From NCBI GenBank assembly GCA_030447305.1, contig JAUJPC010000003.1, forward strand, positions 332,738 through 396,737: a stretch of DNA of 64,000 bases. Reading direction: 5' to 3'. Position 1 is the stretch's first letter. Every line of letters begins with the position of its first letter. The translations under genes and the position numbers were made by a program. Shown here in pieces: positions 27,674-43,639 of this stretch. The notes under the pieces were generated by a model, which was not told where the DNA came from, did no database searches, and was given only the letters and a program-made list of their open reading frames with translations. Origin of the DNA: Actinomycetota bacterium. GTDB lineage: Bacteria; Actinomycetota; CADDZG01; JAHWKV01.

Positions 27674-27747
27674 GCCCCCGTACTCCAACGGGCAGAGAGA
27701 GTCGACTTAAAATCGATACAGTGTGAGTTCGAATCTCACCGGGGGCA
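27674..27747 (+). tRNA. tRNA-Leu (TAA), class-I-shaped, island attachment site
   Basis: A 74-nt cloverleaf. Acceptor GCCCCCG (27674-27680) pairs with CGGGGGC (27740-27746), discriminator A. The D stem is 3 bp (CTC/GAG). The anticodon arm GTCGA-CTTAAAA-TCGAT carries TAA at 27708-27710, reading TTA. The T arm is GTGAG-TTCGAAT-CTCAC. The variable loop is only five bases (ACAGT), whereas bacterial tRNA-Leu normally has a long variable arm, so the molecule is atypical and may be a rare or mobile-element tRNA. The antisense recombinase gene ends in it: its stop codon lies over 27707-27709, in the anticodon loop. Confidence 0.8.
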
Positions 27748-29425
27748 CGGGACAGACCTGGACACCATCGAGTCCTCCGTTGTGGAGTGTGATCTCGATG
27801 TCGGCCTCCTTCTTTTCGTGGTCGTAGGTCACTGTGAGCTGGAGCGCCTCGAACAGGCGCCGCAGTTCGGCCGTCGGCAGCTCAGGGAGCTTTTCGGCGA
27901 TCAACGGTAGCTTGCTCAGAAGTCCGGCGATGTCGGCGAAACGGGGCGGCAGAGCGGGCGCCTGGGCAGCAAGCTGGTCCCGCAGGCTGCGCTTGTTGGC
28001 CAGGGCTTGATCGAGCTCGCCGATCCGGAGGGCCACCCGCTTTCGGACCGCGGCCGTAGTTTCTTCATCTTCGAGGACGACAACCTGCCGGCCCAGTCTG
28101 GCTTCCAGGTCGGCGATCTCGGTCTCCAGCTCGTGGATGCGTGCTTCGTTGGACGGCGCCGGCTCGGACTGGTTGGCGACGGTCAGGCAGTAGTGCCAGT
28201 AAGCTTCCCGCTCCGCCCCGAAGACCGCAGTCTTGAGGAATTCGAGCACCGCCTCGTTGAGTTTCTTCTCGCTCAAGTGAACGGTCGCCGGGTGTCCGGC
28301 GGGCATGTTGGCTGAACGTTGATGCGTCACCTGGCACTGGTAGTAGACCCCGCTCGGCCGGGTCTTGCCCCACATCCGGTTGCCGCAGGCGCCGCATCGT
28401 AGAATGCTCCGATATAGATAGGCGGTCTTGGGCGGCGTCCCCGGCTCCCGGTAGCTTCGGTGATTGGTCCGGGCCCTTCTGCCGACGGCCTCGAATTCTG
28501 CACGCCTAATGATCGCCGGGTGCGACGGCTCCTCAGACCACACCCACGCCGAGGGGTCGTTCGGTCGCCCGCCCTTCTTGCGCGCCCGGCGGTTCCAGAC
28601 CTGATAGCCGGTGTACTTCGGGTTTCGCAGGATCTCCCAGATGCTAGAGCGCGACCAAGTGCCGGTTGACTGCGCGGGATCCGGCTTGCGCGGCGCCGGG
28701 CAGCGCTCCAGGTCGGCGTTCAAGATGTCCTGCAGCTGTTTGATCCCGGCGCTCCCCGACAGGTACAGGTCGAACATCCGCCGCACCACCGGCGCCCGCA
28801 CCGGATCCAGCTCCAAAGTCCGCTTCACACTGCCCTGCCTGGCCTTGTGCGGGTTGGGGTGGGGATGCTCGACGAAGCGGTAACCGTAGGGAGCGATCCC
28901 TCCGGTGTGCCATCCCTGGCGGATCGATGTCTCCGACCCCTGCCGGGACTTGACCATCAGTTCGTGGTGGTACCCCTTGGCGATCCCGACGTTGACGTGG
29001 CGGAGCACGATGGTGCCGAACGACTCCTCCAGCGGCTCGTCGGCACAGCACAACCGCACCCCGCAAGCCGACAACTCCTCCTCAATCCGAAACGCAACCG
29101 AGGAGTTGCGCGACAGCCGGCTGATCGACTCCACGATCACCCGGTCGAACCCCGCCGGCCTTCGCTGAGCCGCCGCGAGCAGATCGTGGAGCCCGCCGTC
29201 CCGGGGAATCGGGATCTCGAAGCCGGCCAGCCCTCCCGACCCTCGTGCGTCGTAGCGCCGGGTCCCCGACTCGACGTCGTAGAAGTGCGCCACGATCAGC
29301 CCACCCGACTCCGCCACCCGCTTCTCGGCATTGTTCAGCTGCCGGGGGAAGGAGAGTGTGGGGTCCTGCTCGTCCTCGGTGGAGACCCGGCCGTACCAGG
29401 CGTAGCGAGCCGGGACTGCCTCCAT
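27707..29425 (-). CDS. Large serine recombinase (site-specific integrase)
   Basis: 572 residues. N-terminal resolvase domain (RYAWYGRVSTEDEQDPTLSFPRQL, catalytic Ser in GRVST; VIVESISRLSRNSS), a Recombinase domain (GWHTGGIAPYGYRFVEHP ... SRSSIWEILRNPKYTGYQVWNRR), a zinc ribbon (LRCGACGNRMWG ... YYQC) and a C-terminal coiled coil (ARIHELETEIADLEARLG). It would integrate and excise the island. Its final ~14 codons (PPVRFELTLYRF) are the antisense reading of tRNA-Leu, so integration at the tRNA supplied its 3' end. ATG 29425 overlaps the stop of the preceding small gene (TGATG); GTG 29428 is an alternative. Confidence 0.92.
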   Translation of the reverse strand: MEAVPARYAWYGRVSTEDEQDPTLSFPRQLNNAEKRVAESGGLIVAHFYDVESGTRRYDARGSGGLAGFEIPIPRDGGLHDLLAAAQRRPAGFDRVIVESISRLSRNSSVAFRIEEELSACGVRLCCADEPLEESFGTIVLRHVNVGIAKGYHHELMVKSRQGSETSIRQGWHTGGIAPYGYRFVEHPHPNPHKARQGSVKRTLELDPVRAPVVRRMFDLYLSGSAGIKQLQDILNADLERCPAPRKPDPAQSTGTWSRSSIWEILRNPKYTGYQVWNRRARKKGGRPNDPSAWVWSEEPSHPAIIRRAEFEAVGRRARTNHRSYREPGTPPKTAYLYRSILRCGACGNRMWGKTRPSGVYYQCQVTHQRSANMPAGHPATVHLSEKKLNEAVLEFLKTAVFGAEREAYWHYCLTVANQSEPAPSNEARIHELETEIADLEARLGRQVVVLEDEETTAAVRKRVALRIGELDQALANKRSLRDQLAAQAPALPPRFADIAGLLSKLPLIAEKLPELPTAELRRLFEALQLTVTYDHEKKEADIEITLHNGGLDGVQVCPVPPVRFELTLYRF

Positions 29426-29676
29426 CACCCACCCTCCTCGTCCAACAACCCCAACTTTAGAGCAATCGCGAGCAAGACCTCGCCCTGTGCCCTGGCTGCG
29501 GCCGCGCCAGCGTCACCCTCGATCGCTCGAACCTCGGTGCGGCCGACGACGATCGAACGGCACAAGGAGCGCTCAGATCGGGAGCGGTTGTCAAGCGACA
29601 GTTTTCCGGACGAACTCGGCAGCGGGATCTCCTTGTCGGTCATCGGTGTGGCCCAGTACGGGAGTAGCGCCTCCAC
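29425..29676 (-). CDS. Small protein coupled to serine recombinase
   Basis: 83 residues (MEALLPYWATPMTDKEIPLPSSSGKLSLDNRSRSERSL...), ending ALKLGLLDEEGG, with its TGA overlapping the recombinase ATG. A second start at ATPMTDKE is possible. It is basic in the middle with an Ala-rich helix near the end. Not recognised. The position suggests a recombination directionality factor, a regulator of the recombinase, or an orphan; none is proven. Confidence 0.5.
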   Translation of the reverse strand: MEALLPYWATPMTDKEIPLPSSSGKLSLDNRSRSERSLCRSIVVGRTEVRAIEGDAGAAAARAQGEVLLAIALKLGLLDEEGG

Positions 29677-30145
29677 CCCTAGAAACCGGCTTTTGGGCCG
29701 GAAATCGGACGGCGGTTCTTCAACTTTTCGCTCGACTCTGACGGGGAGGGAAAAGTGTCGGAGATTTGAAGCCGCCGGTTGCCAAACTGGATCGAGAGCG
29801 CGAAGCGAGCCAGGCCGCAGTGGACTCGGCGAGTCGAGAACTCCTGTTCGGCGTAGCCCCGCATGCTGACAGCTGACGCCAAGCGGGTTCTCGGCGACGT
29901 GGCGCTTTTTGGCATCTCGTGTGCGCGCGTCTCGCTGTCGGTCGGTAGATCGGTCGACCGATCAGTCGGTAGATCGGTCGGTAGATCGGTCATGACCGAT
30001 CGGGTCTCCTACACCAAATCCCGGCGTGGATTCCGCTCTCCAACCCGATCGGTGGTCACTCCGACCTCATTAGCTGATTTGTTTGTTTCTTGAGATCTCG
30101 CTACGTCAAGCAGGCTTCGGTCGGCTGTGAACGTTTCTTTCGGCC
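29677..30145. other. Non-coding stretch upstream of recombinase
   Basis: No convincing gene is seen here. The notable content is the palindromic repeat cluster at 29943-30001. A 76-codon frame crossing the repeats is low complexity (SVGRSVDRSVGRSVGRS) and is treated as a by-product of them. Confidence 0.5.
29943..30001. repeat. Palindromic direct-repeat cluster (CGGTAGATCGGTC)
   Basis: CGGTAGATCGGTC occurs three times (29943-29955, 29967-29979, 29979-29991). Within the cluster are two perfect palindromes: GATCGGTCGACCGATC at 29948-29963 and GATCGGTCATGACCGATC at 29984-30001. The core unit is GATCGGTC and its complement. It lies about 270 bp upstream of the small gene plus recombinase on the minus strand and upstream of the Gabija-like genes on the plus strand. 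This density suggests an operator array or recombination-accessory sites. Confidence 0.75.
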
Positions 30146-30385
30146 TTAGCGCACGATTCCCAAGCTACGCAGGATCAGAGCGGCAAACTCCCAGTGTGCT
30201 TCCTCACACAGCAGGCGTACTGCCTTCAGCGCGTTGCTGGAGCGCAGGAGGGCGCTGGCGTCGAACGTCACGAGAGGTTTCTCTTCGTCATTGTCCGGGA
30301 TTTCAATCGTCCGCATTGCGGCCTCGGCAGCCTCCGGGATGTCGATCAGGAGCCGGAACAGGCCCTCGGGGCGGGCCTTCGGCAC
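30146..30385 (-). pseudogene. Small fragment, possibly DUF5677-like remnant
   Basis: A 79-codon frame with natural-looking protein sequence (LFRLLIDIPEAAEAAMRTIEIPDNDEEKPLVTFDASALLRSSNALKAVRLLCEEAHWEFAALILRSLGIVR). The helical end, with an ALKAVRLL...ALILRSL pattern, recalls the start of DUF5677-type proteins that continue for another 200 residues. The GTG start has no ribosome-binding site, and a TAG closes the frame about 26 codons upstream of it. I think it is a leftover of a larger gene. Confidence 0.35.
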
Positions 30386-30588
30386 CGAAGGGACTGGACC
30401 CCGGTGTCCGGCGGGGTGCGCGTGCGTGAGCTGCGGTGTGGGTTGCGCTTCTTGCTGCTAGGCATGTCACGAGGGTATCGGCCGTTCCTGGTGACCACCG
30501 GTCAGCGGCCCGGACGTGAGGTCGTCTCCCGCGCTTCCGGTTGTGGTAGGGCACCTTCGCCGGGGCGATGATCCTTTAGAAGCACTTC

Positions 30589-32469
30589 ATGGTGGTCGCG
30601 CTGAGCTGGAGATGTCAACATCGGATCGTGCGTATCCGCCAGGTCACTATCGAGCGGTTCAGGGGCCTTGAATATCTTCGCTTTGCCCCTGGTCCTTGCA
30701 CCGTCATCTTGGGGCCGAATAACGCGAGCAAAAGCACGGTGCTGGACGCCCTAGACCTCCTCCTCCATCCAGGACTGGGGCGGCTTCGTCCCGCACCCGA
30801 GGAGGCCGACTATTTCCTCCGCGATCCGGTCAGCGGCTTCGAGATCGAGGTGGTGCTCGGCGATCTGCCCGACCCGTTCCGAGCTGATGTTCACCAGCAC
30901 TTGGAGGGCTGGCGAAGCGCGGACGCCGAACTGGTTCCCGAGCCCGACGGCGAGGGTATCGAGCCAGTCGTTCGCGTTCGTGTCCGAGGTACATCCGATT
31001 TCGACATCCTTCACGAGTTTGCGAAACCCGAGTCGGAGAGCGCGCGCTTCAATCCGGCCTTGCGGACACAGGCGGGATGGATCTTCGACGGACGGTCGCG
31101 GGACCCTGGCCGCCAGCTCTCTTTCTATCAGGGCGGCCTGCTCGATCGGCTCTTTGCGAACGCCGATCTCGACGCTGCAATAGAGGCGCTCCGGGGCGCC
31201 CTCGGCGATGGCGCCCAGGCCATTAACGCCGATGATTCTGTGGAAACGGTGATCACGGACCTCTCTACGGATCTCATTACACTGGGGCTCCTCCGCGATG
31301 GCGAGAGGGCAGCGTTTGAGGGCGGCGCGGTCTCTCGGCGAGCGTTGCTGCAGACCCTACGGCTCTCTCTCCCGACCCCAGAGGGGATCCCCATTCCGCT
31401 CTCGCGCCAGGGTCGTGGTGCACAGCGTCTCGTTCTGGTGGCGACGCTGCTTCGGGTAGCAGAGGCGATCGGAGCGAAGCCCATTGGAGGGTTCGAGGAA
31501 CCCGAAGAGGCGCTCGAACCGCTTCGCCAAGGGCAACTGGCTGAGATGCTGCGAGCAATTGCGGACCAAGGCGGACAGATCATTGTAGTAACGCACTCAC
31601 CTGACATCGCCAGATGCTTTGAGATCGATGACTTTCTCCTGCTTCAGGAGCGTGCGGCGGGGGAGGGGGCTCGGCAGCTGTTTCGAGTCCTCTCTCCGCC
31701 GGTCCGCCAAACGTACGAGCGCAGTCTGGACGGCGCCGTCGTTCGCGGTCTTTTCTGCAGGATCCCCGTGCTCGTCGAAGGTCCCAGCGACCGGGCGGTG
31801 TTCGACACGTTCTGGAGCGCGTTGGCCAAAGCCGGGCATGTCCTCCCCCGGTTCCGTATGGGATTGGACGTCGTGAACGCGGAGGGGGTCGCCAACATGC
31901 CCATGCTGGCCGCCGTCCTCCACGAGGCGGGCAAGATGCCCGTCGCCTGGGTGGATCAGGACACGCAGGAGGCGCTCCGCGAGATCAATCGTCTGAGACA
32001 GGAGAGGCACTGCGGCGCCATCCTCCTGCACCATCATGCAGCGGGTCGGCAGAACCTCGAGCAGGCGTTCGCATGGGGCTGCTCGCTCGAAGCGCTAAGC
32101 CGCGCCATGGACGCGGTGGCTCGGGATCGGGGGTACACCTGGGATGAACAGCGCAATGATCTACTGAGCCGCTGCGAGGGGATAGACCATGCCGCCAGGG
32201 AACGAGCGAAAGCAGCAGGCTGCGTCTCCGAGTTCCTGGGCGAGCTCGAGGAGGCGTTCGCGCGCCGGCTCGTCGCCTCAGCGTTGAGCGCGAAGGGAGT
32301 GACGCCGTTCGACGTCAAGGGCGCCCGGCAGGCCCGGGTCCTCGCGGAAACCATCGTTGAAGAGCAGGGCGTTCCGGATAACTTTGCCAGGGCGTTCAAG
32401 GAACTCGACGCCTGGATCCGTGATGGCGCCACCCTCACTACCGAGATCGCCATGACTACCGGTGCCTGA
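30589..32469 (+). CDS. gajA: Gabija-like OLD-family ATPase/TOPRIM nuclease (GajA-like)
   Basis: 626 residues from ATG 30589, or about 613 from GTG 30628, which gives the more typical N-terminus (VRIRQVTIERFRGLEYLRF). ABC-type ATPase half: Walker A ILGPNNASKSTVLDALD (SKS variant), signature-like SRQGRGAQRLVLVA, Walker B region IGGFEEPEEALEP and His switch VVTHSPDIARCF. C-terminal TOPRIM nuclease: IPVLVEGPSDRAVFDTFW with the catalytic Glu, GLDVVNAEGVANMPML, and the acidic VAWVDQDTQEA. In Gabija, GajA is a nucleotide-regulated DNA endonuclease acting with GajB. The two genes overlap by 8 bases. Family assignment rests on architecture and neighbour. Confidence 0.85.
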   Translation: MVVALSWRCQHRIVRIRQVTIERFRGLEYLRFAPGPCTVILGPNNASKSTVLDALDLLLHPGLGRLRPAPEEADYFLRDPVSGFEIEVVLGDLPDPFRADVHQHLEGWRSADAELVPEPDGEGIEPVVRVRVRGTSDFDILHEFAKPESESARFNPALRTQAGWIFDGRSRDPGRQLSFYQGGLLDRLFANADLDAAIEALRGALGDGAQAINADDSVETVITDLSTDLITLGLLRDGERAAFEGGAVSRRALLQTLRLSLPTPEGIPIPLSRQGRGAQRLVLVATLLRVAEAIGAKPIGGFEEPEEALEPLRQGQLAEMLRAIADQGGQIIVVTHSPDIARCFEIDDFLLLQERAAGEGARQLFRVLSPPVRQTYERSLDGAVVRGLFCRIPVLVEGPSDRAVFDTFWSALAKAGHVLPRFRMGLDVVNAEGVANMPMLAAVLHEAGKMPVAWVDQDTQEALREINRLRQERHCGAILLHHHAAGRQNLEQAFAWGCSLEALSRAMDAVARDRGYTWDEQRNDLLSRCEGIDHAARERAKAAGCVSEFLGELEEAFARRLVASALSAKGVTPFDVKGARQARVLAETIVEEQGVPDNFARAFKELDAWIRDGATLTTEIAMTTGA

Positions 32470-34186
32470 ATACCGACCCGATCCCGATCACGACGCGGTC
32501 CTTGAGTCCCAGGCCAAACACCTCGTGGTCACGGCGCCGCCCGGGACCGGGAAGACGTTCCTGTCCGTAAGGCTCGCCGGCGCCCTGGCACCGCTTCTGT
32601 CGGCTGGAGGTCGGGTCCTGCTCCTAACCTTTTCCAATCAGGCCCGCACTCAGCTCGAACGCGAAGCGGCCCGCCAGTTGACCCCCGAGCTTCGGCGCCG
32701 CGTAGACGTTACCAACTATCACCGTTTCTTTTGGCACGGTGTGCTGGCTTACAGGCGAGCCCTGAGGCTTCCGATGCGCTTGGACATTGGAAGTCGCCGT
32801 CGCAGGGAGGGCGCCCTGCGCCGCGTCGACGAAGAACTCGTCAGGGAGCTGAGACGGGCTGAAGGGCTGATCGACTGCCTTGCAGAGCACGCCTTTCCAG
32901 AGCTGCGGGACCATCGAACTCCAAACGAGGAGACCCTGCAGCGCCTGCTCCCTATTGTGGCAGAGGAGCAGCGACAGGGTCGGCTCGTATTCGACGACCT
33001 TGGAGCGCTCTTCTGGTCACTGCTCGGACGCTTCCCCGCCGTCGAGGAGGCTTACAGATGCCGCTACCCGGTGGTCATCGCGGACGAACACCAGGACGCC
33101 TCGGCGCTTCAGGACGCTGTGGTTCGCCGGCTGGCGCATGATCGCCTGGTGGTCTTCGCAGATCCCATGCAGCTCATCCACGAGTTCAGGGGGGCAAGTC
33201 GGGGCCGGCTCATGGGCCACGTGGCAGAATGCGAGGAGCACCTCACGCTGAGCACAGCGCATCGTTGGCATGGGAGCGTGGAGTTGCCCCGTTGGTTGCT
33301 CACGGTCCGTGCACGCCTCGAGGGGGAAGCCAGACCAGGTCCCCCTCCCCCGCAACTTCGTATCGAGCACAGCCCTGCCGACCGGGGGTTCAACGGGATG
33401 AAGCCCCTCGTCAGGAATGCTGTGGCCTGGGCTTTCCAAGAGGGCGCTCGGACCGTCGCGGTTATGGCGCGCGGCAACCGGGAGGTGGCGGAACTTCGCT
33501 CGTACCTCTGCCGGGCGGGACAATTCCCGCGTCAGATCGGCGCGGAGGATTTCGAGGAGGCTCGCGGGGACATCGAGCAGCTCCCGCTTCTGACTGACTC
33601 ACAGACCATCGCCCTTCACGCAGTGGATCGCCTCGAAGCGCTCGTCCCCACCCTCCGCACGCCTCTGCTGGCTCAGGTCCGCGGACGGCTCGGCCCCGTG
33701 GACATCAACATGAGCAGAGCTGGCTCCGAGGCTGGGCTGATCCTCCGCGCACTCGAACCCATCTATGACAAGGGTCCGGGCGCGTACTTCGGGTCCGTGG
33801 TTACCGCCTTGGAGACGCTTGCTGGAGGTGGCCATCACCTTCCTCGGTTGGAGGCGGTTCGGGCACTAAGGATCACCGCCGAGGCGAAGGAGAAAGAACC
33901 TGTAGATCTGGATATGGCGCTTGAGAGATACACGGCAGCCGTGCTGGCCGCAACCTACACAGCTCCACGGATGGATCGAGGGCTGTTCATTATGACCGCA
34001 CACCAAGCCAAGGGCAAGGAGTTCGACGCCATCATCCTTGGGGATGCTATGGAGCGCTTCTGGCCAGACGGCGACGACCACCGGCAATTGTTCTACGTGG
34101 TGATCACGCGGGCGAGCAGATTGTGGGCGGTCGTCGCCCCGGATCGAGGCGCCTCGCCGCTGCTCGCTTATCTCGGCGACCAATGA
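32462..34186 (+). CDS. gajB: Gabija-like UvrD/Rep-type helicase (GajB-like)
   Basis: 574 residues of superfamily 1 helicase. Walker A HLVVTAPPGTGKTFLSVRLAG, motif Ia LLLTFSNQARTQLE, motif II VVIADEHQDASALQ, motif III FADPMQLIHEFRGA, motif IV/V-like FIMTAHQAKGKEFDAIIL and motif VI LFYVVITRASRLW. It is shorter than UvrD and lacks large 1B/2B domains, as expected for GajB. GTG start within the end of the upstream gene implies coexpression. It probably unwinds or senses DNA to activate the nuclease. Confidence 0.85.
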   Translation: MPEYRPDPDHDAVLESQAKHLVVTAPPGTGKTFLSVRLAGALAPLLSAGGRVLLLTFSNQARTQLEREAARQLTPELRRRVDVTNYHRFFWHGVLAYRRALRLPMRLDIGSRRRREGALRRVDEELVRELRRAEGLIDCLAEHAFPELRDHRTPNEETLQRLLPIVAEEQRQGRLVFDDLGALFWSLLGRFPAVEEAYRCRYPVVIADEHQDASALQDAVVRRLAHDRLVVFADPMQLIHEFRGASRGRLMGHVAECEEHLTLSTAHRWHGSVELPRWLLTVRARLEGEARPGPPPPQLRIEHSPADRGFNGMKPLVRNAVAWAFQEGARTVAVMARGNREVAELRSYLCRAGQFPRQIGAEDFEEARGDIEQLPLLTDSQTIALHAVDRLEALVPTLRTPLLAQVRGRLGPVDINMSRAGSEAGLILRALEPIYDKGPGAYFGSVVTALETLAGGGHHLPRLEAVRALRITAEAKEKEPVDLDMALERYTAAVLAATYTAPRMDRGLFIMTAHQAKGKEFDAIILGDAMERFWPDGDDHRQLFYVVITRASRLWAVVAPDRGASPLLAYLGDQ

Positions 34187-34381
34187 GATCCTGCGGAGGC
34201 CCTAGGAAGACCGTCTCGGGCGAGCCATCATGCTAGACGTGCTCGCGATCCCATGACTCTTGATTTACGAAACACGGGCTCTCTGAAAGGGCCGCTGCAA
34301 AACGATTAACACAAATGGCAAAGTGACGACTGGCACCGTTCGGCGCCAACTGGTTCTGCATTACGGATTGCTGGGCCGAAA
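34187..34381. other. Convergent intergenic region
   Basis: Between the helicase stop and the convergent pyrF-like stop. A+T-richer than the helicase gene. I see no clear terminator hairpin or small gene here. Confidence 0.4.
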
Positions 34382-35251
34382 TCAAGACGGGAGTTTGGTT
34401 CGGGAGGCGTCGTTTGACATAAAGTTCCTAATTCTGTTGTCCAAACTGAGTCCCGCCCGTCTTGCTCCTTCAGCAAAATGCTGATCCGACTGAGCAAAAA
34501 TAATCCCTCGGGAGCTGTTGATAACTCCGACCAATTTCCCTGAAATAACTGCAGCGGACAACGTTTCTTCAAGGTCTGCTCCTTGTGCACCTACCCCAGG
34601 AATCAAAAGCGGCAGGTCTGGAGCTAGGGCGCGTATGCGGGCAAGCTCGCGAGGATACGTAGCACCGACGACTAAGCCACAATTCTGCGAAGTGTTCCAC
34701 CTCTCTCTTACTGCGATTGCGACAGCCTCATAGAGCGGCATGTCGGTGCCCTCCCAGTGGACAAGTAGGTCCTGAAGCTCCGGGGCACCGGGATTCGAAG
34801 TCCTGCACAAAACGAGTATTCCTCGATCAGCGTACGAGCGAAATTCCGACGCGGACTCTGAGCCGAGATAAGGCTGAACGGTCATTGCGTGAGCACGAAC
34901 TTGTTCAAAGGCGAAATGAGCGTAGCCAAGATTTGTCGAACCGATATCTCCTCGCTTGGCGTCAAGAATCACGGGGGTGTCTGGAACGGTCTTTCTTATG
35001 TACTTGACTGTTGAAACCAGGGTGGAGATTCCATCAGGGCCGAGAGCTTCATAAAACGCCGAGTTGGGTTTGTAAGCAGCGGCGAAGTCAGCTGTCGCGT
35101 CGACAATTGCACAATTGAAGGCCAATTGCGGGTTCCTATTACTCGATACGGCACGTGGCAGTCTGATCAACTCACTATCAAGGCCTACGCAGACGTGGCG
35201 GTGTGCTTGGCTCATAGAGCTAAGCAGTTCATTGAAGGTCGAGTTACTCAT
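34382..35251 (-). CDS. pyrF: Orotidine 5'-phosphate decarboxylase, type 2
   Basis: 289 residues of the OMP decarboxylase fold. CVGLDSELIRLPRA, YKPNSAFYEALG and the catalytic core VILDAKRGDIGSTNLGYAHFAF (Asp-Lys-Asp) match actinobacterial type-2 PyrF; later motifs are TVQPYLGSESA, LVLCRTSNPGA, GLVVGATYPREL and LLIPGVGAQGADL. All core residues are present, so decarboxylation of OMP to UMP is plausible. It is the last gene of the five-gene operon and overlaps the preceding gene by 8 bases. Housekeeping pyrF normally sits with pyrB/carAB, so this looks like an accessory copy. Confidence 0.88.
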   Translation of the reverse strand: MSNSTFNELLSSMSQAHRHVCVGLDSELIRLPRAVSSNRNPQLAFNCAIVDATADFAAAYKPNSAFYEALGPDGISTLVSTVKYIRKTVPDTPVILDAKRGDIGSTNLGYAHFAFEQVRAHAMTVQPYLGSESASEFRSYADRGILVLCRTSNPGAPELQDLLVHWEGTDMPLYEAVAIAVRERWNTSQNCGLVVGATYPRELARIRALAPDLPLLIPGVGAQGADLEETLSAAVISGKLVGVINSSRGIIFAQSDQHFAEGARRAGLSLDNRIRNFMSNDASRTKLPS

Positions 35252-36974
35252 CAGGATCGTCGGGAAGGCTGCGTCCTAGCATTTGGTAATGGTGCTTCTT
35301 CACGTCGCTTTGTATATCGGCCGGCACCGGCACAAGGCCGGCGCTTAAGTTTGAGGTTGCCACCAAGAGCAGGCTTCGAAATAGCAGTCCGTAGACGAAC
35401 GCGATTTCCTCATCGGGAACGCTCTCATTAACGAAGTTCACCGGATACCCGTTGGCGAGCAAAGTGAGGGTTGCCTCAGTGATCAGAGTTATCCGACGGA
35501 CGCCTGCAGGAAGCAATTGTTCATCGGTCTGTAAGTCGTGAAGATCCTTCCAAACTAGCTCCCGACGTTTGGAGGATCCGTTTGCAAAGTAGGTATTTTG
35601 CTTCAAGCTCAACAGAGCACTAGAGTCAATAGAGTCTTTGCCTGTACACCCGACGATGAGATCTACGTCCCTGCATCCCTCCTCGAGAGTTGAGCAGACG
35701 CGGTAGCCTTCGACCTCAGCCTCTTTGCGTCGGTCGGGGTTCGTATCGAAGACCGTAAGGTCCTTGCATGCTGCCTTCAAATGTCTGGCTGCATGCTTGC
35801 CGGTAGCCCCGAAGCCGATGAGCAGGGTACGCTGATCCCCTAACCCAAACCCCATTTTTCCGATTTGGTCTTCGACGTTCCTGGCAATCGATCGGCCGAT
35901 CAAAGGACTTTCAGTATTCTTTTTCAAAGCAGATTCGGCGACGTTCACCAGAGGAATTCTTGGCTGAACGCCTCTTTCTTCGTACTGCCAAATGCCGTTT
36001 TGAGTTTGCTCCACAATTCCGGCTGTTATATCAAGCAGCTCGGGTCGCGCTTCATGGAGGTAAGGTCCTATGTATCCGCCGTCTTCCACCACGATTAGCT
36101 TCGAAGGTGTGCGGCGAGCGACCACTTCTGCATCGGCAATCGCGTTCAATACGGCTTTGTTGATTGCATCGTCGTTAGTGATGTAGAGATTTCGGATGCC
36201 CATCGTCCACAAGTTTGCGACGGCAGCTTGCTTGGTCGAATAGGGAATGTTGGCGAGGAATATTCGCTCCGGTGGCATTCCCGCTTGGATGGTGGCTGAG
36301 ATGAACCCCTGTACGTCAGACAAGAGATGAAGGGCAAAGACTCCCACAAAACCCGCAAGAGGAGCATCATGACCAAAATGTTGCCTATACCATTGCATCA
36401 GCCGCGTGCTTCGGGGTTCGACCTCATGCGAGAAGCTGAGCGCGATCGGACCAGTACTGTTCAGCGATGCCCGGGCGATCAGATAGCAGGTACCGTCGTC
36501 GAAACGTTGGATCTCCAACGGATCGGGAGTCACTTGCGCTTTGAGTCTCGATGACTCTGTCAGCTCGGGGAATGGAACATGAAGCCGAAATTCGTATCGA
36601 ACGGTCGGAATCGACTCGAACGTGACGCTGTAGCTCAAAGGATGCTGAAAATTAGGACTGACGAGGCGCGCCCTCAATTGCACGACAACCGGGGTAGTGC
36701 AATCCACGTCAGCGATGATTTCCCACGTCACGGTTCCCGGCCTGCTGGGTGCTGGGGGAAAAAGGCGAAGGGCTGCCTTGGCAGGTACCGCAGATCCGAC
36801 GATTTCCTTCACATCTAGGCCAAGAGTCTCCTGGCGAGAGTAGGTGAAGGCCTGCGGACTGTCTTCGTCAGTCGTGAACTCGAAAGTCCTAACGAGATCG
36901 ACGGCTCCATCGGGGTTCACAGTCACTTCGTCACCAACGTAGACCAGAACCTGCGGCGTCGGACTTACAAACAT
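35244..36974 (-). CDS. Beta-rich domain fused to S-adenosylhomocysteine hydrolase-like domain
   Basis: 576 residues. The first ~200 are strand-rich, immunoglobulin-like in texture (VLVYVGDEVTVNPDGAVDLVRTFEF ... YSVTFESIPTVRYEFRLHVPFPEL), with no family I know. Residues ~215-540 resemble AdoHcy hydrolase: KLIVVEDGGYIGPYLHEARPEL, GIVEQTQNGIW, IPLVNVAESALKKNTESPLIGRSI, the NAD-binding loop TLLIGFGATGKHAARHLKA, VFDTNPDRRKEAEVEGYRV, and DLIVGCTGKDSIDSSALLSLKQNTYFANGSS. By my hand alignment the catalytic Lys of the VTKSKFD motif is retained (ALKKNTES), while the second Glu of EETTTG is Gln. The true SAHH substrate domain seems modified, so it probably acts on another nucleoside or is regulatory. 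Confidence 0.75.
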   Translation of the reverse strand: MFVSPTPQVLVYVGDEVTVNPDGAVDLVRTFEFTTDEDSPQAFTYSRQETLGLDVKEIVGSAVPAKAALRLFPPAPSRPGTVTWEIIADVDCTTPVVVQLRARLVSPNFQHPLSYSVTFESIPTVRYEFRLHVPFPELTESSRLKAQVTPDPLEIQRFDDGTCYLIARASLNSTGPIALSFSHEVEPRSTRLMQWYRQHFGHDAPLAGFVGVFALHLLSDVQGFISATIQAGMPPERIFLANIPYSTKQAAVANLWTMGIRNLYITNDDAINKAVLNAIADAEVVARRTPSKLIVVEDGGYIGPYLHEARPELLDITAGIVEQTQNGIWQYEERGVQPRIPLVNVAESALKKNTESPLIGRSIARNVEDQIGKMGFGLGDQRTLLIGFGATGKHAARHLKAACKDLTVFDTNPDRRKEAEVEGYRVCSTLEEGCRDVDLIVGCTGKDSIDSSALLSLKQNTYFANGSSKRRELVWKDLHDLQTDEQLLPAGVRRITLITEATLTLLANGYPVNFVNESVPDEEIAFVYGLLFRSLLLVATSNLSAGLVPVPADIQSDVKKHHYQMLGRSLPDDPDE

Positions 36975-37024
36975 TCGGGTCTTCTTAAAGAACAGCCGAT
37001 ATTGACTCCGGGCTGCTCTGAGCG

Positions 37025-37624
37025 CTAAGCCGCTTCTGAGTCCGGGACCTTAACGATGGAGTACAGCGGAATGTCCATCGAGGACAGGAGGTGCTCGGCG
37101 CCTTCGCCGCGATCTGCGAACGCCAACGCCCCGCAGTTCCTCGCGCCCAGCTTCCAAAGAACCTCAGCGGCGTGCCAAATACTCCTACCTGTAGTCGCAA
37201 CATCGGAGACAATCAGGACGTGCGCATCTTTGGGTAGAACAAATGGTTTTGCTGCCTGACTAAGAAGTCGCTTCTCTGGCCGTATCACCATACTTCTCAT
37301 GCCAGTCTTCTGAGCCAGCAGCACCCGAGCGGCAACGATACCAACCGGACCTGGTCGGGTAACAACGAAAGCGAGCAAGTTGTAACCCTCGGCATCTCGT
37401 AAATCCTTTATACGTCGCGCGAGGGACTCGATCAGTCCGCTTAGCTTCGCCTCCTCGCCGTCATTAGGTCCGAAAAGTTCATCCAAATCTACGAAGTCGT
37501 GGCCGTGACCGCCGGACACATAGTCATATTCGCTGTTCTTGACGCAAACGCGCGTAAATTCTTCTAGCAGTTCTGGCGCGACTTCAGCTCCCGGTGATGC
37601 TACCCATGTTCTCGTAGCCGCCAT
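37025..37624 (-). CDS. Orotate-type phosphoribosyltransferase
   Basis: 199 residues. A PRTase fold with LLAFVVTRPGPVGIVAARVLLAQKTGMRSMVIRPEKRL and the PRPP-binding loop VLIVSDVATTGRSIWHAAEVLWKLGA, where the usual paired acidic residues are Ser-Asp. Overall it resembles PyrE-like enzymes that couple a base to PRPP; the N-terminal ~70 residues are divergent. Starts exactly where the 153-residue gene stops (TAATG). The operon also encodes an OMP decarboxylase, so orotate or an analogue is a reasonable substrate guess. Confidence 0.78.
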   Translation of the reverse strand: MAATRTWVASPGAEVAPELLEEFTRVCVKNSEYDYVSGGHGHDFVDLDELFGPNDGEEAKLSGLIESLARRIKDLRDAEGYNLLAFVVTRPGPVGIVAARVLLAQKTGMRSMVIRPEKRLLSQAAKPFVLPKDAHVLIVSDVATTGRSIWHAAEVLWKLGARNCGALAFADRGEGAEHLLSSMDIPLYSIVKVPDSEAA

Positions 37625-38085
37625 TAGTCTCCCCCCCGCCGAACAAGGCCGATAAAGTCAGAATTTAGATCCGAGACGACTGATAGGTAATCTCTAAGTG
37701 CGCGCTCTATAACTGGCGCCCACTGATTCGAATCGTCAAAATCAACTCCGGCCAACGTCTCAAATTCGTTGCCCAACCGTCCAAAGAACTGGCGACGAAC
37801 CCTGTCCGAATCCTCGTCGTATCGAAAGTCCCCGGTCAGGTTCTCAAGCGCGTCTTCAAGAAATCTGCTGATGAAATAGAGCAGCAGAGTCAGGCCAGCC
37901 GGAGTCGATCTTGTCAGGGTTGACTCACACCATGCCTGAAGGTTGTGGGCCGGCCGCAGCGGCTTCGGAGCACCTGGTTCTGCCGCTGCACGAAGAGGCG
38001 TGGCCGCGTTCCTTAGCTCGTCTCGGAGAAAATCGTGGACGGGTTGAGCTGAAGGGCTCACGGGCACAGCTTGAATAGAGCCCAT
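37624..38085 (-). CDS. Unknown 153-residue operon protein
   Basis: 153 residues, largely helical after a disordered Pro/Ala N-terminus (MGSIQAVPVSPSAQPVHDFL). The core LTLLLYFISRFLEDALENLTGDFRYDEDSDRVRRQFFGRLGNEFETLAGVDFDD contains one amphipathic or weakly hydrophobic helix. No known domain recognised. One-base overlaps (TAATG) on both sides put it firmly in the operon between the MerR-like and PRTase genes, so it may be an adaptor or sensor subunit. Confidence 0.7.
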   Translation of the reverse strand: MGSIQAVPVSPSAQPVHDFLRDELRNAATPLRAAAEPGAPKPLRPAHNLQAWCESTLTRSTPAGLTLLLYFISRFLEDALENLTGDFRYDEDSDRVRRQFFGRLGNEFETLAGVDFDDSNQWAPVIERALRDYLSVVSDLNSDFIGLVRRGGD

Positions 38086-38321
38086 TACGCGGACTCCGCC
38101 AACACTTTCTTGATTGAAACCAGATTCATGCCTTGCTCTTGCATTGATCGAATCTTCCTACAACGTTCCAAACTCGACGTCGCCTCATATTTCCGGCGAC
38201 GGCCCCGGCGGTTAAACCTCAGAAGACCTAGCTCGGACCAGTGGTCTATTGTTGTGTAAGGCTCTTGGGAAAGTTCCGCGAGCTCCAGAGCGGTGATGAA
38301 CTCGGGTTCGGTCGCCTGCAT
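38085..38321 (-). CDS. Minimal MerR-type DNA-binding protein
   Basis: 78 residues with only a winged HTH of the MerR kind: FITALELAELSQEPYTTIDHWSELGLLRFNRRGRRRKYEATSSLERCRKIRSMQEQGMNLVSIKKVL. The dimerisation helix and effector domain are missing. It is the first gene of the operon, preceded by an AAAGGTG ribosome-binding site, so it probably autoregulates it. Effector sensing may be contributed by a partner such as the 153-residue protein. Confidence 0.82.
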   Translation of the reverse strand: MQATEPEFITALELAELSQEPYTTIDHWSELGLLRFNRRGRRRKYEATSSLERCRKIRSMQEQGMNLVSIKKVLAESA

Positions 38322-38500
38322 TGTTTCACCTTTGCGTCCTTGATTGCGTCGGGACTTAGAGCAGTTCTAGCACTTGATACTGCTAACGAAGATAACACCC
38401 GATTGCGCGAGTGAGCTGAATTTGGCAAGTTTCGGACCATTATTCGGAGCGTCTTTTCTCCGATCGTTCATCCCGAGAGACTACGGCGTCGAGACCGGAC

Positions 38501-39160
38501 TTGTTCGACTCCTCAGGAGGGATCTCGCGTCAGATTGACATAGTCGTTTATCGGACGAGCTACCACCCTGTCTTCGAGGTAGCTGGCGTCAAGCACTTCA
38601 TGGTGGAGTCGGTGGCCGCCGTCATCGAGAACAAAGCCGACATCGGTAGCAAGGAGAGACTGAGGCAAGCCCTTGAGAACATCGAGTCGGTCAAGCGGCT
38701 GGACCGAACCGGCGAAGGGAAGAACTACATGGTTATGGGCTTCCACGGTAGGGGGGAGGACCTGTCACGAGATAACCCTCAGCATGGAGTCTGGGGAGCC
38801 ATTATCACGGAGAACTCTTTGGGGCGGCAGGTTCTCGCCGAGGAGCTGAACACCTACATGCATCAGAAGCCCCGCAGCCTATGGCCCAACGCCTACATCG
38901 ACATCTCACGCTTTGCCGCTTTCTATGTGAAGGAGGGGCAGTTTGGGGTCAATCCGTGTCTCTATCCAGAAGATGCGAGTCGCTTGGTATTCACTGACCC
39001 TGATGTTCCCGGCTGCCTTCCTCCACTCGTAGATTTAAGCCGGCTCTTAGCTGACAGACTCAGGACCGTAGGGGTCCCTGATTTCCCGCCCAGCAAGTAT
39101 TTCGCCTTGAGCAAAGAATCGGTCGCCGCACTCAAACTCCCAAGCCCGGAAGACTCTTAA
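38501..39160 (+). CDS. DUF6602-like protein, N-terminally truncated
   Basis: 219 residues from TTG 38501. The sequence SSGGISRQIDIVVYRTSYHPVFEVAGVKHFMVESVAAVIENKADIGSKERLRQALENIESVKRL is typical of DUF6602, a restriction-nuclease-like family; the Asp of QIDIVV and the E-x-K of IENK resemble a PD-(D/E)XK core. Full members have ~60-80 residues before this point including an upstream Glu. Here the frame is open only to about 38413 with no better start. It is either a truncated remnant or a short form. Divergent from the five-gene operon, with ~180 bp between them. Confidence 0.6.
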   Translation: MFDSSGGISRQIDIVVYRTSYHPVFEVAGVKHFMVESVAAVIENKADIGSKERLRQALENIESVKRLDRTGEGKNYMVMGFHGRGEDLSRDNPQHGVWGAIITENSLGRQVLAEELNTYMHQKPRSLWPNAYIDISRFAAFYVKEGQFGVNPCLYPEDASRLVFTDPDVPGCLPPLVDLSRLLADRLRTVGVPDFPPSKYFALSKESVAALKLPSPEDS

Positions 39161-39252
39161 CACCCGCGAGACGGTTGTACGGCCGCCGGGGTTGCTCAAA
39201 CGTGAGGGCTACTCCAGATCCATGGCGCGACAAGGACGACTCCTTCTCTCTA

Positions 39253-39690
39253 TCAAAGCCCGAGTCGGCCCTTGAGGAACTCCAGCAGGAGGCCGCCCCC
39301 CACTCCCTGACCGAGTGATAGGAGGGCCTCTCGGAGCCGCTCGAGCCGCGAGCGCCGGCCTTCGTCAGGCTCCCGCTCGATCATCCGCTCCACGACCGCC
39401 ACGAAGTCGTCGAAAGGGTCCTCGCTAGGCCACTGGCCCACGGCCCTGCGCCCCCGTTCCAAAGGGCGAATGTCCATGTAGTCGGTCGGAAGCAGCTCCT
39501 CGGCGACCTCGACCGGGTAAGCCTCGACGTAGCGGGCCTCGTATAGGGCCCTGACTCCCAGGATGACCTGGTGTCGCTCGAGGGAAAGCCGCTCCGCGAG
39601 GGCGCCTACGTTCAAGTCGCCCTTGCCCTCGCCCTCCACCACCTCCTGGAGAATCGGCAGCTCGCGCTCGGTCCACGTGTCCACAACCAT
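39253..39690 (-). CDS. Winged-helix-like hypothetical protein
   Basis: 145 residues from ATG 39690 (longer TTG start at 39699). TWTERELPILQEVVEGEGKGDLNVGALAERLSLERHQVILGVRALYEARYVEAYPVE has the pattern of a winged helix. The C-terminal half is a charged helix pair (FVAVVERMIEREPDEGRRSRLERLREALLSL) with a Gly-rich end. Found in islands of actinobacteria in my recollection, with no known function. Confidence 0.65.
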   Translation of the reverse strand: MVVDTWTERELPILQEVVEGEGKGDLNVGALAERLSLERHQVILGVRALYEARYVEAYPVEVAEELLPTDYMDIRPLERGRRAVGQWPSEDPFDDFVAVVERMIEREPDEGRRSRLERLREALLSLGQGVGGGLLLEFLKGRLGL

Positions 39691-39778
39691 GCTGCCCAAG
39701 AGTGTAGGCGCTCCAAAGGTCCTGAGGCCCCGCTCATGCTATGGGCAAATCCATCGAACGAGACAGCGCGCTGCTACG

Positions 39779-39967
39779 ATGCCTAGCAGGGAGCATGTGC
39801 GCCGTTGCCCGGGATGCGGGCGTGCGCTTCGGGTCGGCGGCCACGCCCTGAAGCTGGGCTCGCCGATTATCGGAGGTCGCTTGGGAGAGCCGATTGCTTA
39901 TTGCGATGGCTGCAAGTCAGGCCTCGAGATGGCCGCGGGCACCTCCCGCTGGCGCCCGAGCACCTAA
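39779..39967 (+). CDS. Small double-CxxC zinc-ribbon protein
   Basis: 62 residues. CPGCGRALRVGGHALKLGSPIIGGRLGEPIAYCDGCKSGLEM carries two CxxC pairs 27 residues apart, a zinc-ribbon layout. ATG 39779 lies at the natural beginning of this sequence; the open frame before it is not protein-like. Function unknown. Confidence 0.5.
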   Translation: MPSREHVRRCPGCGRALRVGGHALKLGSPIIGGRLGEPIAYCDGCKSGLEMAAGTSRWRPST

Positions 39968-40648
39968 GTGCTTGGGCTCGGCACGAATAGCGGGTCCGAA
40001 CGGATTGTTTAGGTTCTGTGCGTAGACACTAAACCGTTCCCATCCTCCAACGAGGCAGACTACACCCTGAGGCGGCAGCGACTACGGTCCGCCACCTTCC
40101 ACGACGGCGACAGAGGCCGCGGCCATGATCAGCGCCAGTGGGACACTTGCCAGACGGCGTTCCCGGTGACTAAATTATCCGTCCAGCCGCCCAATCCCCA
40201 TGGACGAGGAGCGTCACAAGGGCCGTCGCCTTCACCGACAAGTCGGCAGAGAGCAAAGAGACAGCGGCCGCAGTGACGCCACCCGCCAACCGACTCAAGG
40301 AACTCCGTCTTCCAGTCGTCCTCGCCTGGGCCGGTCACGAGCCCAGTATGGGCGACGTGAAGGAGCGGAGTCTGACCACTGGGGAATAGGTGGGACGTCC
40401 ACTAAGCGATCTCAACTCTTCTGGATCTTCCTCAGCTAGCTCTTGTCCCCAACGGAGTTCACACCCGTTGTTACAACCTTGAGGGGGTGTGGGTCCCAAA
40501 CTAGAACTGCGCGGCTTCGCCATAAAAGGGGGCGAAGCCGTCATTCCAAACTGCTCCTTTCATTCCCAAGCCCAGCTCCCCGCCATAAGTACACGGGACT
40601 TGAGCGCTTAGCTACGGCTACCGAGAGCGCTCCCATCGTTGCGACTCG
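39968..40648. other. Gene-poor stretch in the island
   Basis: About 680 bases in which I see no convincing gene. Short frames of 69-79 codons at 40129-40338 (minus) and 40200-40439 (plus) overlap each other and lack ribosome-binding sites. The only structure noted is the hairpin at 40512-40540. Confidence 0.4.
40512..40540. terminator. Perfect 10-bp hairpin
   Basis: CGGCTTCGCC at 40512-40521 pairs with GGCGAAGCCG at 40531-40540, loop ATAAAAGGG. It lies ~110 bp past the stop of the minus-strand membrane gene, so it may terminate that gene. No U-tract on either strand. Confidence 0.4.
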
Positions 40649-41428
40649 TCACGACACTTTTGATTCCAGGAGTGGGTGTTCCGACACGGCCAAACCAGCC
40701 TCACTGAGGGCTTCTTGCATGTTCGTCGCTATCCATGCCCGAAGTCGATCGGCGTCCTCTAACCAATTAACGACCATGCTCGAAAGGCCGCTGAACGTCC
40801 CAGACATGTAGTCGAGAAACCCCTGACTTGCGAGGGTCAGAAACGGGGAGTCGACGACTTGGAAGAGCAGCTTCTGAAGTTCGATGGGGACGAACGGAGC
40901 CCACCGTTGCACTCTGGCTGTTGCTCGCTCCGTTCGGCTTAGTGCATCCCGTGCTGCCTGTCCTATCGAAAGCTCGTTTCCATTGAGATCGATGAGGTTG
41001 GTTGGTGTGCTCACCTGGAGGTTGCCGAACATCGCCTGAACGTCATCGGCGGAGGCGGGGCCGTTAGGAGGCTGTCGCTGGGCGCTGTGAAATGCATGTC
41101 CTAGGTAACCAGCTGCGGCACCCCAGACTGCCAGTGCATTCCGCACCAAGTCCGGCTGAATCCGGTGTCGCTCGATTTCCCGCGGTCGCCAGACGGTTAG
41201 GTAGAAGAATATCCAGCCTGCGACGTAGCCCAGGCTCAGGTCGAACGCTGCCGTCCCCACGTCCGCTGCACCAGGGAAGAGCTCCGGCCAACGTCGAAGG
41301 ATGATGACAACTGCGATCGTGAGAATGGTTCCTGCGAGTAGCCCGTTGACAACTCGGAGGCCGGGGTCGCGGAAGACGTCCGAAAGACTACCACCACCGA
41401 TACGTCTGGCCCTCTGCGGAGATCCCAT
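40649..41428 (-). CDS. Unknown membrane protein
   Basis: 259 residues with two or three hydrophobic segments near the N-terminus (VVNGLLAGTILTIAVVIIL; FDLSLGYVAGWIFFYLTVW) and a soluble helical C-terminal half (ARDALSRTERATARVQRWAPFVPIELQKLLFQVVDSPFLTLASQGFLDYMSGTFSGLS). I do not recognise it. It is the last intact gene before the proposed right end of the island. Two N-terminal membrane helices plus a cytoplasmic domain would suit a membrane effector, but that is speculation. Confidence 0.6.
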   Translation of the reverse strand: MGSPQRARRIGGGSLSDVFRDPGLRVVNGLLAGTILTIAVVIILRRWPELFPGAADVGTAAFDLSLGYVAGWIFFYLTVWRPREIERHRIQPDLVRNALAVWGAAAGYLGHAFHSAQRQPPNGPASADDVQAMFGNLQVSTPTNLIDLNGNELSIGQAARDALSRTERATARVQRWAPFVPIELQKLLFQVVDSPFLTLASQGFLDYMSGTFSGLSSMVVNWLEDADRLRAWIATNMQEALSEAGLAVSEHPLLESKVS

Positions 41429-41838
41429 CGCACACCAGCATGCCGCATTCGCTCGCTATACAAAGGCCGGGGTGCTACTAGAGGTTGTCATGCTCACCGC
41501 CCATGCAAGGACCGGACTAACTGGCATAAGAAGGGTTAAGGTTGCTCTCGCCGGCGGGATCTAGGCCGTTCTCCAGATCCTTCTCGTGATTTTAGCGGCA
41601 GGTGATGGGACGCCGAATGGTGATCTAAAGCACTCAAGCTGGGCACCGAGTACTCATCGCTCCTACGGGGCGAGGCCGTTTCCCCATCACGCTACCCTTT
41701 TTGCGCGGCCTGAGGGCAGTAGCGCTACACCGATGAGCTTTCACTGAAGCATGATCTTGGCCTCAAGTCGGATCCTGCTCAGGTCTGACCCGGCTCGGAC
41801 CGGGGGCACCGATTTGGCTCAATCCTTGGCGCTTCGCA
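41429..41838. other. Gene-poor stretch at island right end
   Basis: About 410 bases with no gene that I can support. It holds the candidate right attachment repeat at 41799-41809, close to the RadC remnant. Confidence 0.4.
41799..41809 (+). other. Candidate attR core
   Basis: ACCGGGGGCAC is identical to 27738-27748 at the 3' end of tRNA-Leu, where the recombinase gene begins its overlap. No other copy was noticed between 27.7 and 45 kb. The match is short and G-rich, so chance cannot be excluded; the supporting context is the change from island cargo to other genes at this point. Confidence 0.35.
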
Positions 41839-41967
41839 CTAACTCCCTGCGATCACGATGTGATCCAGAAATCTGAGCCCCACGGTCCCGGCTGCATCAT
41901 GAAGCCTTTGCGTGACGGCCGGGTCTTCTTGACTGGGGTTGGGTCGCCCATAGGGGTGATTATGATC
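41839..41967 (-). pseudogene. RadC C-terminal remnant
   Basis: A short minus-strand stretch reads HNHPYGRPNPSQEDPAVT followed by QRLHDAAGTVGLRFLDHIVIAGS and a TAG stop. This is the C-terminal end of RadC (JAB/MPN metalloprotease-like fold), whose consensus is HNHPSGDP.PS..D...T..L..A....G...LDH.I. The metal-binding HNH is present, but the Ser and Asp of SGDP are changed to Tyr and Arg. Upstream the frame is lost, so the gene is truncated. RadC genes often travel with mobile elements. Confidence 0.7.
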
Positions 41968-42125
41968 TACGGCGGAGCCGCACCGCCGCACCTTCTACCT
42001 GCACGTCAGGACCCCTGATCGACAGAGGGTTTCTCCACCCTCTTCCGAGCGTATGAGTTTCTCGGCTCCGAGTTGTCGCCGCCTCACAAAGCGGCCTCCG
42101 GGTCACCGCCATAAGATCTGAGGTC

Positions 42126-42854
42126 ATGAAGCCGTTCCTGCTGCTGTCGACCCGGGCCGTCGACCGCGCAGCAGATAACGAGTACGAGGCCATGCTCCAC
42201 TTCGCCGGACTCGAAGAAGGGCAGCTGCAGCGCGTGCGAATGGAGCAGAGACCACTTGGCCCGATATGCCTCGACGACTTCTCGGGTGTGATCCTCGGGG
42301 GCGGGCCGTTCAACTCGTCCGACGTCGAGAAGTCAGCGGTCCAGATCCGGGTGGAGGCCGAGATCAGCGCCCTGCTCGACCAGATCGTCTCCCGGGACTT
42401 TCCGTTTCTGGGGGCGTGCTACGGCATCGGCACATTAGGCATGCACCAGGGCGCCGTGGTCGACCGGACCTATGCCGAGCCGGTCGGACCGACGATGATC
42501 ACGCTGACCGACCAGGGCCGTGCCGACCAGCTGTTCCAAGGTCTTCCCGACGGGTTCGAGGCATTCCTCGGGCATAAGGAAGCCATCCGCAAGCTGCCGG
42601 CACACGCCGTCAACCTGGCCTCCTCGGCGGCCTGCCCGGTGCAGGCGTTCCGTGTCGGCAGCAACGTTTATGCAACCCAATTTCACCCGGAGCTCGACTT
42701 TGCCGGCGTCGAGGTTCGGATCGATGTCTACAAGCATGCCGGGTATTTCGAGCCGTCCGAGGCCGACGCCTTGAAAGAACGAGCACGGGCCAGCAACGTA
42801 GTCCACTCACCGGAGATCCTTCGCCGGTTCGTCGAGCTGTTTGCCCGAGAGTAG
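42126..42854 (+). CDS. Class I glutamine amidotransferase (GMP synthase-like)
   Basis: 242 residues. A GATase1 domain: PFLGACYGIGTLGMHQ with the nucleophile Cys, and QFHPELDF with the catalytic His-x-Glu. The N-terminus (LLLSTRAVDRAADNEYEAMLHFAGL) and the C-terminal ~40 residues (YFEPSEADALKERARASNVVHSPEILRRFVELF) match stand-alone GuaA-domain glutamine amidotransferases. No synthetase partner is nearby, so its acceptor is unknown; some relatives are glutamyl or peptide hydrolases. Confidence 0.85.
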   Translation: MKPFLLLSTRAVDRAADNEYEAMLHFAGLEEGQLQRVRMEQRPLGPICLDDFSGVILGGGPFNSSDVEKSAVQIRVEAEISALLDQIVSRDFPFLGACYGIGTLGMHQGAVVDRTYAEPVGPTMITLTDQGRADQLFQGLPDGFEAFLGHKEAIRKLPAHAVNLASSAACPVQAFRVGSNVYATQFHPELDFAGVEVRIDVYKHAGYFEPSEADALKERARASNVVHSPEILRRFVELFARE

Positions 42855-42957
42855 CCACCTAAGTGCGCTTGCGGTACGACTGGCCGACGCCGCGTGGTCG
42901 CAAAGCGACATTCAGTGCGAGATAGCCTTGCCACATTATCCAGCGAGGAGAGGCCCA

Positions 42958-43374
42958 ATGGTCACGGAGCACGACTTACCGCTCGAGGAGTACCACCGTG
43001 CAGGACTCGAGATCACAAAGGGGAATCCGGAGGTGTACAAAGCGCTCTACTCCCGCCGGGATGATGTGACCATCGCCAATCCCTTCGGGCCCCCCCTGTG
43101 CGGTTGGAGCAAGGTGTCGGAGTGGTTGGACCGCACTGCGAACAACTACCGGGATGGTCAAGACTACGAGTTCGAAAACATCTCCACGGTGATGGCCTCG
43201 GGCCTTGCCTACACTGTGGAGATAGAAAGGGCGCGGGCTCGGGTCGGCGGAGCGGCGGAGCTCACTCCCGTCACTAGCGCTTTTCGTCGCGAGGGCGGCG
43301 TTTGGAAGGTGACGCATAGGCACGCGGATCCGATAACGACGACGCGACCGCCGGAATCAGTGATCGAGACATAG
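42958..43374 (+). CDS. SnoaL/NTF2-like protein
   Basis: 138 residues. The cone-shaped NTF2-like fold is suggested by VYKALYSRRDDVTIANPFGPPLCGWSKVSEWLDRTANNYRDGQDYEFENISTVMASGLAYTVEIERARARVGG followed by the characteristic ending SAFRREGGVWKVTHRHADP. It starts at ATG 42958 with GAGGAGAGG before it. The open frame upstream is not protein-like. Probably a small enzyme or ligand binder; substrate unknown. Confidence 0.8.
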   Translation: MVTEHDLPLEEYHRAGLEITKGNPEVYKALYSRRDDVTIANPFGPPLCGWSKVSEWLDRTANNYRDGQDYEFENISTVMASGLAYTVEIERARARVGGAAELTPVTSAFRREGGVWKVTHRHADPITTTRPPESVIET

Positions 43375-43639
43375 CCCCGGCGATCCTCGGGTGCCGATAG
43401 CTGGTAGAAGTGGACAGCCCCGCCGCCACCTTGTTGAAGTCGTTCACTTCTCTAGGTCAGAGCGGACATTGCCCCACCGCATTGCCTTTGAAGACCACCT
43501 CGCTCGCTCCCAGACAGCGCGGTCGCGAATCTGCTTAGAGCAGGCAGCGGGTCAATATGTCAAATGACACCGGCGAGATGTCCCCGCGCCGTCGCCCGCT
43601 TACCTCGGCGGACTGGCGTCCGGATTCCACTCCAGCTCT

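Follow-up and report, generated by a model that had tools for sequence, protein, structure and literature searches.

S-adenosylhomocysteine hydrolase (SAHH) is usually regarded as a one-reaction enzyme. The same fold can also serve nucleoside chemistry, as shown by AgmF of angustmycin biosynthesis, a homologue of SAHH that has NAD+ bound and dehydrates the sugar of a nucleoside, SAH not being its substrate (PMC8599513). The residues H56, D129, K184, D188 and H299 are essential in AgmF, an H299A substitution abolishing activity, and its cluster also encodes a phosphoribosyltransferase (PRTase), AgmE, and a LOG protein (PMC8599513). In SAHH itself, the adenine is contacted by T57/E59 and H353 and the ribose by E156 (T56, E58 and E155 in rat numbering), while Thermotoga-type SAHHs lack the C-terminal tail and bacterial SAHHs are described as lacking C195 (reviewed in PMC12955632).

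Here we describe a diverged SAHH relative that has an orphan region at its N-terminus and is encoded in an unusual pyrimidine operon. It lies in a 64,000-nucleotide stretch of an Actinomycetota genome (the window), whose relevant features are as follows:

27674-27748, forward strand: tRNA-Leu gene, the left edge of the island, conserved in a sister genome
27707-29428, reverse strand: serine recombinase of the island (Pfam Recombinase/Resolvase)
30589-34186, forward strand: Gabija genes gajA (30589-32469) and gajB (32462-34186) (PADLOC GajA 3e-39, GajB 3e-42)
34382-35251, reverse strand: OMP decarboxylase (OMPDC), 289 aa (TIGR02127, PDB 3qw3)
35244-36974, reverse strand: SAHH-like protein, 576 aa (ORF, homology, model and fold match)
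35433-35918, reverse strand: its NAD-binding half, residues ~353-514, with a GFGATG loop and N513 for N346 (Pfam, alignment, residue table)
35919-36407, reverse strand: its SAHH substrate-binding half, residues ~190-352, including E322/Q323 for E155/E156 (alignment, model, fold match, residue table)
36408-36974, reverse strand: its family-less N-terminal extension, residues 1-189, predicted to be all-beta
37025-37624, reverse strand: OPRT-like PRTase, 199 aa, PRPP motif VLIVSDVATTG (TIGR00336, PDB 2yzk)
37624-38085, reverse strand: 153-aa protein with no family match (homology searches empty)
38085-38321, reverse strand: MerR-type helix-turn-helix regulator, 78 aa, the first gene of the operon (Pfam MerR_1, 1.6e-9)

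The SAHH-like core and its N-terminal region

The open reading frame at 35244-36974 is intact, with an ATG start and 576 codons. Its product matched the Pfam family AdoHcyase_NAD (6.5e-11) and SAHH chains in the PDB, such as 5tov (E = 4.9e-14); in the best PDB alignment residues 192-567 pair with residues 20-389 of a complete, 407-residue SAHH. With 16 relatives included, AlphaFold2 gave a model in which the core (residues ~190-570) had pLDDT values mostly between 80 and 95. Foldseek placed this core on whole SAHH structures, with a target-normalised TM-score of 0.80 to 3x2f over ~400 columns. On this modelled structure, the protein has the two-domain SAHH fold, with a Rossmann NAD domain. The initial annotation had held that the substrate half was swapped for a beta domain, but the alignment, the AlphaFold core and the Foldseek match refute this, since both SAHH halves are there. 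The motifs that it listed, i.e., DGG (as DGGY), GIVEQT..G, VNVAES..K and the NAD loop GFGATGKHAARH, were all found. It had also held that a model with an intact SAHH substrate pocket would count against its reading: the substrate domain is indeed there, but its pocket residues differ from those of SAHH.

Residues 1-189 were predicted as strands only, with pLDDT below 50 for most of the region in the full-length model and 41 when it was modelled by itself. The region had no Pfam match, no significant PDB match and no confident Foldseek match; no relative was found among 24 genomes of the class and 396 genomes of Actinomycetota, and a comparison with plasmids gave a single weak match (E = 0.04). 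The strand-rich domain without a known family that had been proposed here thus stands as regards its strands (at low confidence) and its lack of homologues, but not as a replacement: because the alignment and the AlphaFold core cover the whole of SAHH, the region is an addition in front of a complete two-domain fold.

Identity to SAHH is only ~20-30%, and the score with the AdoHcyase equivalog TIGR00936 was 72.5 bits, below the curated cut-off of 497.6. The same genome encodes a separate, canonical SAHH, which was among the canonical SAHHs used for comparison of active-site residues (given in human SAHH numbering). The protein retains His55, Asp131, Glu155, Thr157, Lys186, Asn346 and all three glycines in its NAD loop, the catalytic K186, H55 and D131 being K351, H216 and D298 in the 576-aa protein. 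Changed are T57L, E59D, D134Y, E156Q, N181A, D190E, N191S, C195I, H301S and H353V. The adenine-reading T57, E59/Q59 and H353 are thereby replaced by L, D and V, while S468 and A346 stand in place of H301 and N181, and Asp410 occupies the position of Glu243. The EETTTG motif reads VEQTQNG, with Gln323 for the ribose-binding Glu156, so that the Glu-to-Gln change in the initial annotation was correct, the further changes being more numerous than it noted. Also missing is the C-terminal Lys426/Tyr430 tail. By itself this is not decisive, because Thermotoga SAHH lacks the tail as well; nor is the C195 change diagnostic, given that C195 is described as absent from bacterial SAHHs. The earlier suggestion that AdoHcy is not the substrate gains support from the altered adenine-binding residues, E156, N181 and H301, from the low equivalog score and from the separate canonical SAHH, and judging by the sequence AdoHcy is an unlikely substrate.

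The operon and its island

Read from the MerR gene, the five genes follow one another as MerR, the 153-aa protein, the PRTase, the SAHH-like protein and OMPDC, with junctions that are, in order, a 1-nt overlap, a 1-nt overlap, a 50-nt gap and an 8-nt overlap. The sequence upstream of the MerR gene yielded no operator dyad. The catalytic loop of OPRT carries a catalytic His. In the PRTase this His is absent according to our reading of the alignment, and the PRPP motif reads SDVATTG; the protein scored 35.4 bits with TIGR00336, under the cut-off of 106.8, and matched the PDB OPRT 2yzk at 1e-8. Because both the catalytic loop and the PRPP motif have diverged, it may be inactive as an OPRT. The OMPDC passed its cut-off comfortably (TIGR02127, 233.3 bits against 110.6; PDB 3qw3, 2e-50) and keeps the catalytic DxKxxD as DAKRGD, but it is a second copy in the genome and lies on a mobile island, a canonical PyrF adjoining PyrD elsewhere. 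Since canonical SAHH and PyrF are both encoded outside the operon, its SAHH-like and OMPDC genes are extra copies.

No relative with the same operon was found in our searches, and no SAHH-like partner was annotated in the neighbourhoods of plasmid OMPDC genes from Vibrio, Lactococcus, Leptospira and Natronorubrum. The evidence for the association of these genes is therefore this one locus, together with looser parallels. PROSITE-like regular expressions for PRPP and OMPDC motifs missed annotated PRTases, and the count that they gave is left out. On Vibrio lentus and Lactococcus plasmids, a dTMP kinase gene adjoins the OMP decarboxylase gene pyrF (L051, 5412-6840; L053, 5393-6942).

From tRNA-Leu to glpX, the interval measures 18.7 kb here (27674-46450) and 5.1 kb in the sister genome, with unrelated DNA in between, and is an island hot spot. 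Three features mark the region as a mobile island: this difference in length, the recombinase gene located at the tRNA gene, and Gabija. The operon, with a G+C content of 53-55% against 64% for the region, lies beside the Gabija pair on the opposite strand. On its other side is a DUF6602/NucC-like nuclease gene (38501-39160), whose profile match begins at position 41; it seems to be shortened at its 5' end, possibly through insertion of the operon. A search of Rfam found nothing.

Relatives of the SAHH-like protein

The altered active site is shared by a rare family of diverged SAHH paralogues, with members in four phyla. All 18 members compared keep H55, E155, T157, K186, N346 and GxGxxG, and all 18 carry Ala for N181 and Ser or Thr for H301; the window protein fits the family pattern (DGGY, E-[QDV]-T, [VL]A[ERK]S..K, H301S/T, N181A). 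The split between the family and canonical SAHHs received 89% ultrafast bootstrap, with long branches, because of which the precise position of the window protein in the tree is uncertain. When 396 Actinomycetota genomes were searched with a profile, two matches exceeded 400 bits and the rest stayed below 150, and those of the rest that we inspected were canonical EETTTG proteins, so that the family occurs in only two of these genomes. No close relative turned up when viral contigs were scanned with the single protein and with an alignment; a scan of genome contigs returned members of clade A only.

Clade A comprises proteins of ~500 aa from Streptomyces, Herbidospora, Catellatospora, an Egibacteraceae metagenome-assembled genome and an acidobacterium. 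Those of Streptomyces, Herbidospora and Egibacteraceae are the nearest relatives (~30% identity; five loci) and share DGGY, VEQT, VAES..K and H301S. In Streptomyces there is a PRTase nearby, as at the window locus. However, the N-terminal extension that they carry is a different one, and their neighbours are methyltransferase, GNAT, HAD and radical-SAM genes, with no OMPDC. In three Streptomyces loci and one other, the clade A gene was accompanied by genes for a ~650-aa PRTase, a HAD protein, a GNAT protein and a methyltransferase, with a radical SAM gene nearby in some, which is likely to be an uncharacterised biosynthetic module.

Clade B proteins ("NAD(P)-dependent oxidoreductase", ~370-390 aa) come from S. 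epidermidis, Lactiplantibacillus, Agrobacterium, Aeromonas, Rhizobium, Streptomyces and phage-like contigs. They have N181A, H301S and D134Y in common with the window protein, but lack an N-terminal extension and carry Ile/Val for D131; some have HD, MFS, NUDIX or OPRT neighbours. A three-gene unit, MFS-HD-SAHH-like, is widespread on lactobacilli plasmids, being present on three Lactiplantibacillus or Pediococcus plasmids and ~40 others. The SAHH-like protein of lactobacilli plasmids is annotated as S-adenosyl-L-homocysteine hydrolase, yet lacks the SAHH active-site residues.

On NZ_CP121498.1 (270-10805), a plasmid from a skin isolate of S. epidermidis, a clade B member is clustered with a bona fide OPRT (TIGR00336, 158 bits). 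The genes of this cluster encode a LOG-type protein (TIGR00730), a ParB-like protein, an HpaB-like hydroxylase, a NUDIX protein, an M24 peptidase, an SbnA-like PLP enzyme, OPRT, an HD protein, the SAHH-like protein, an MFS protein and MerR, and together they probably serve nucleoside biosynthesis. 6-N-hydroxyaminopurine is produced by some strains of S. epidermidis, and this cluster could be a candidate for its production.

Proposed function and its alternatives

Bundling with two pyrimidine-nucleotide enzymes suggests a role for the SAHH-like protein in modifying an unusual nucleoside at its sugar. In the mechanism that we propose, it would bind NAD+ and, with Lys351 as base, oxidise a hydroxyl group on the sugar of a nucleoside or nucleotide. 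The likeliest substrate would carry a pyrimidine-type base supplied by the other enzymes of the operon. As in SAHH and AgmF, this oxidation would drive elimination, addition or epimerisation at the sugar, and the five genes would form a small pathway under MerR control, acquired horizontally, that leads to a modified nucleoside or nucleotide. We give this reading, i.e., NAD-dependent modification of the sugar of a nucleoside or nucleotide in a small mobile pathway, a probability of about 0.45. We consider it the best explanation because of the alignment and fold match over the whole length of SAHH, the residues conserved in 18 of 18 relatives, the extra gene copies and the close spacing with the PRTase and OMPDC genes, and because of the S. 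epidermidis pairing with OPRT, the PRTase near clade A genes in Streptomyces and the precedent of AgmF. The S. epidermidis pairing is independent of the window operon and provides the strongest outside support for the mechanism, AgmF being the other.

The parallel with AgmF has bounds, as its published description makes clear. The two loci have in common a protein annotated as SAHH, a PRTase-fold protein in the cluster (here at 37025-37624) and a proposed oxidation of a sugar hydroxyl, and the equivalents of His56, Asp129 and Lys184 are kept. However, His299 is replaced by Ser and Asp188 by Glu in the window protein, and the AgmF pathway is a purine rather than a pyrimidine one. Since AgmF needs His299, where the family has Ser or Thr, the chemistry cannot be identical. 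By this comparison, the window protein is not an AgmF, but a possible functional parallel to it.

The initial annotation had also raised the idea of a nucleoside sensor. In that case the core would be a non-catalytic binding site for NAD or a pyrimidine nucleotide, and the beta region would relay a signal, e.g., to a partner in the defence island. The joint loss of H301, N181 and E156 with gain of the extra region would fit this, as would the neighbouring Gabija and recombinase genes in the tRNA island. However, the protein still has Lys186, His55, Asp131 and every NAD-binding residue that we checked, K186 and H55 being invariant among the 18 relatives, and the operon neighbours are enzymes rather than effectors; from the sequence, the kept catalytic residues and NAD site argue more for an enzyme, and we regard a sensor as unlikely. 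Much the same surroundings could instead suggest an anti-phage system, which would block phage replication by producing or using up a pyrimidine nucleotide: the operon is of low G+C content, lies in the tRNA-Leu island by Gabija and adjoins the NucC-like gene. Neighbourhood alone is weak evidence, however; the sole PADLOC match among the operon enzymes was a weak one of ShosT to the PRTase, and members of the family occur mostly in plasmid metabolic clusters and not in known defence loci. We therefore consider this account distinctly improbable. A search of the literature for a comparable system within a defence island gave no result. More of a long shot is a version that joins the mobile pathway to defence, in which the PRTase, OMPDC and repurposed SAHH with its orphan beta region would make a sugar-modified pyrimidine nucleotide (e.g., 4',5'-didehydro or 3'-keto) that poisons replication of a phage or competitor, in the manner of viperin products.

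Two more conventional readings seem very unlikely. The protein could be an ordinary, if diverged, hydrolase of SAH or S-inosylhomocysteine whose N-terminus is mere decoration, since it has the fold, the NAD loop and Lys186, Asp131 and His55 of SAHH, and the C-terminal tail is missing from Thermotoga-type SAHH too (PMC12955632); against this are the alterations of EETTTG, T57, N181, H301 and H353 together, the score far under the equivalog cut-off, the canonical SAHH elsewhere in the genome and the pyrimidine-directed operon. Equally doubtful is the view that the operon holds an auxiliary pyrE-pyrF pair that simply makes UMP, the SAHH-like gene being functionally unrelated to it. Although the OMPDC scored above its curated cut-off, the PRTase fell under that for OPRT, canonical PyrF is encoded with PyrD elsewhere, and the SAHH-like and OMPDC genes overlap by 8 nt.

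With its diagnostic changes at N181, H301 and E156, and its patchy occurrence on plasmids and islands in four phyla, the family widens the range of SAHH folds that appear to have been repurposed. In databases, many members still go under the name "S-adenosyl-L-homocysteine hydrolase", which calls for caution in assigning them to the methyl cycle. By linking one member of the family to pyrimidine enzymes, the operon described here provides concrete candidate substrates.
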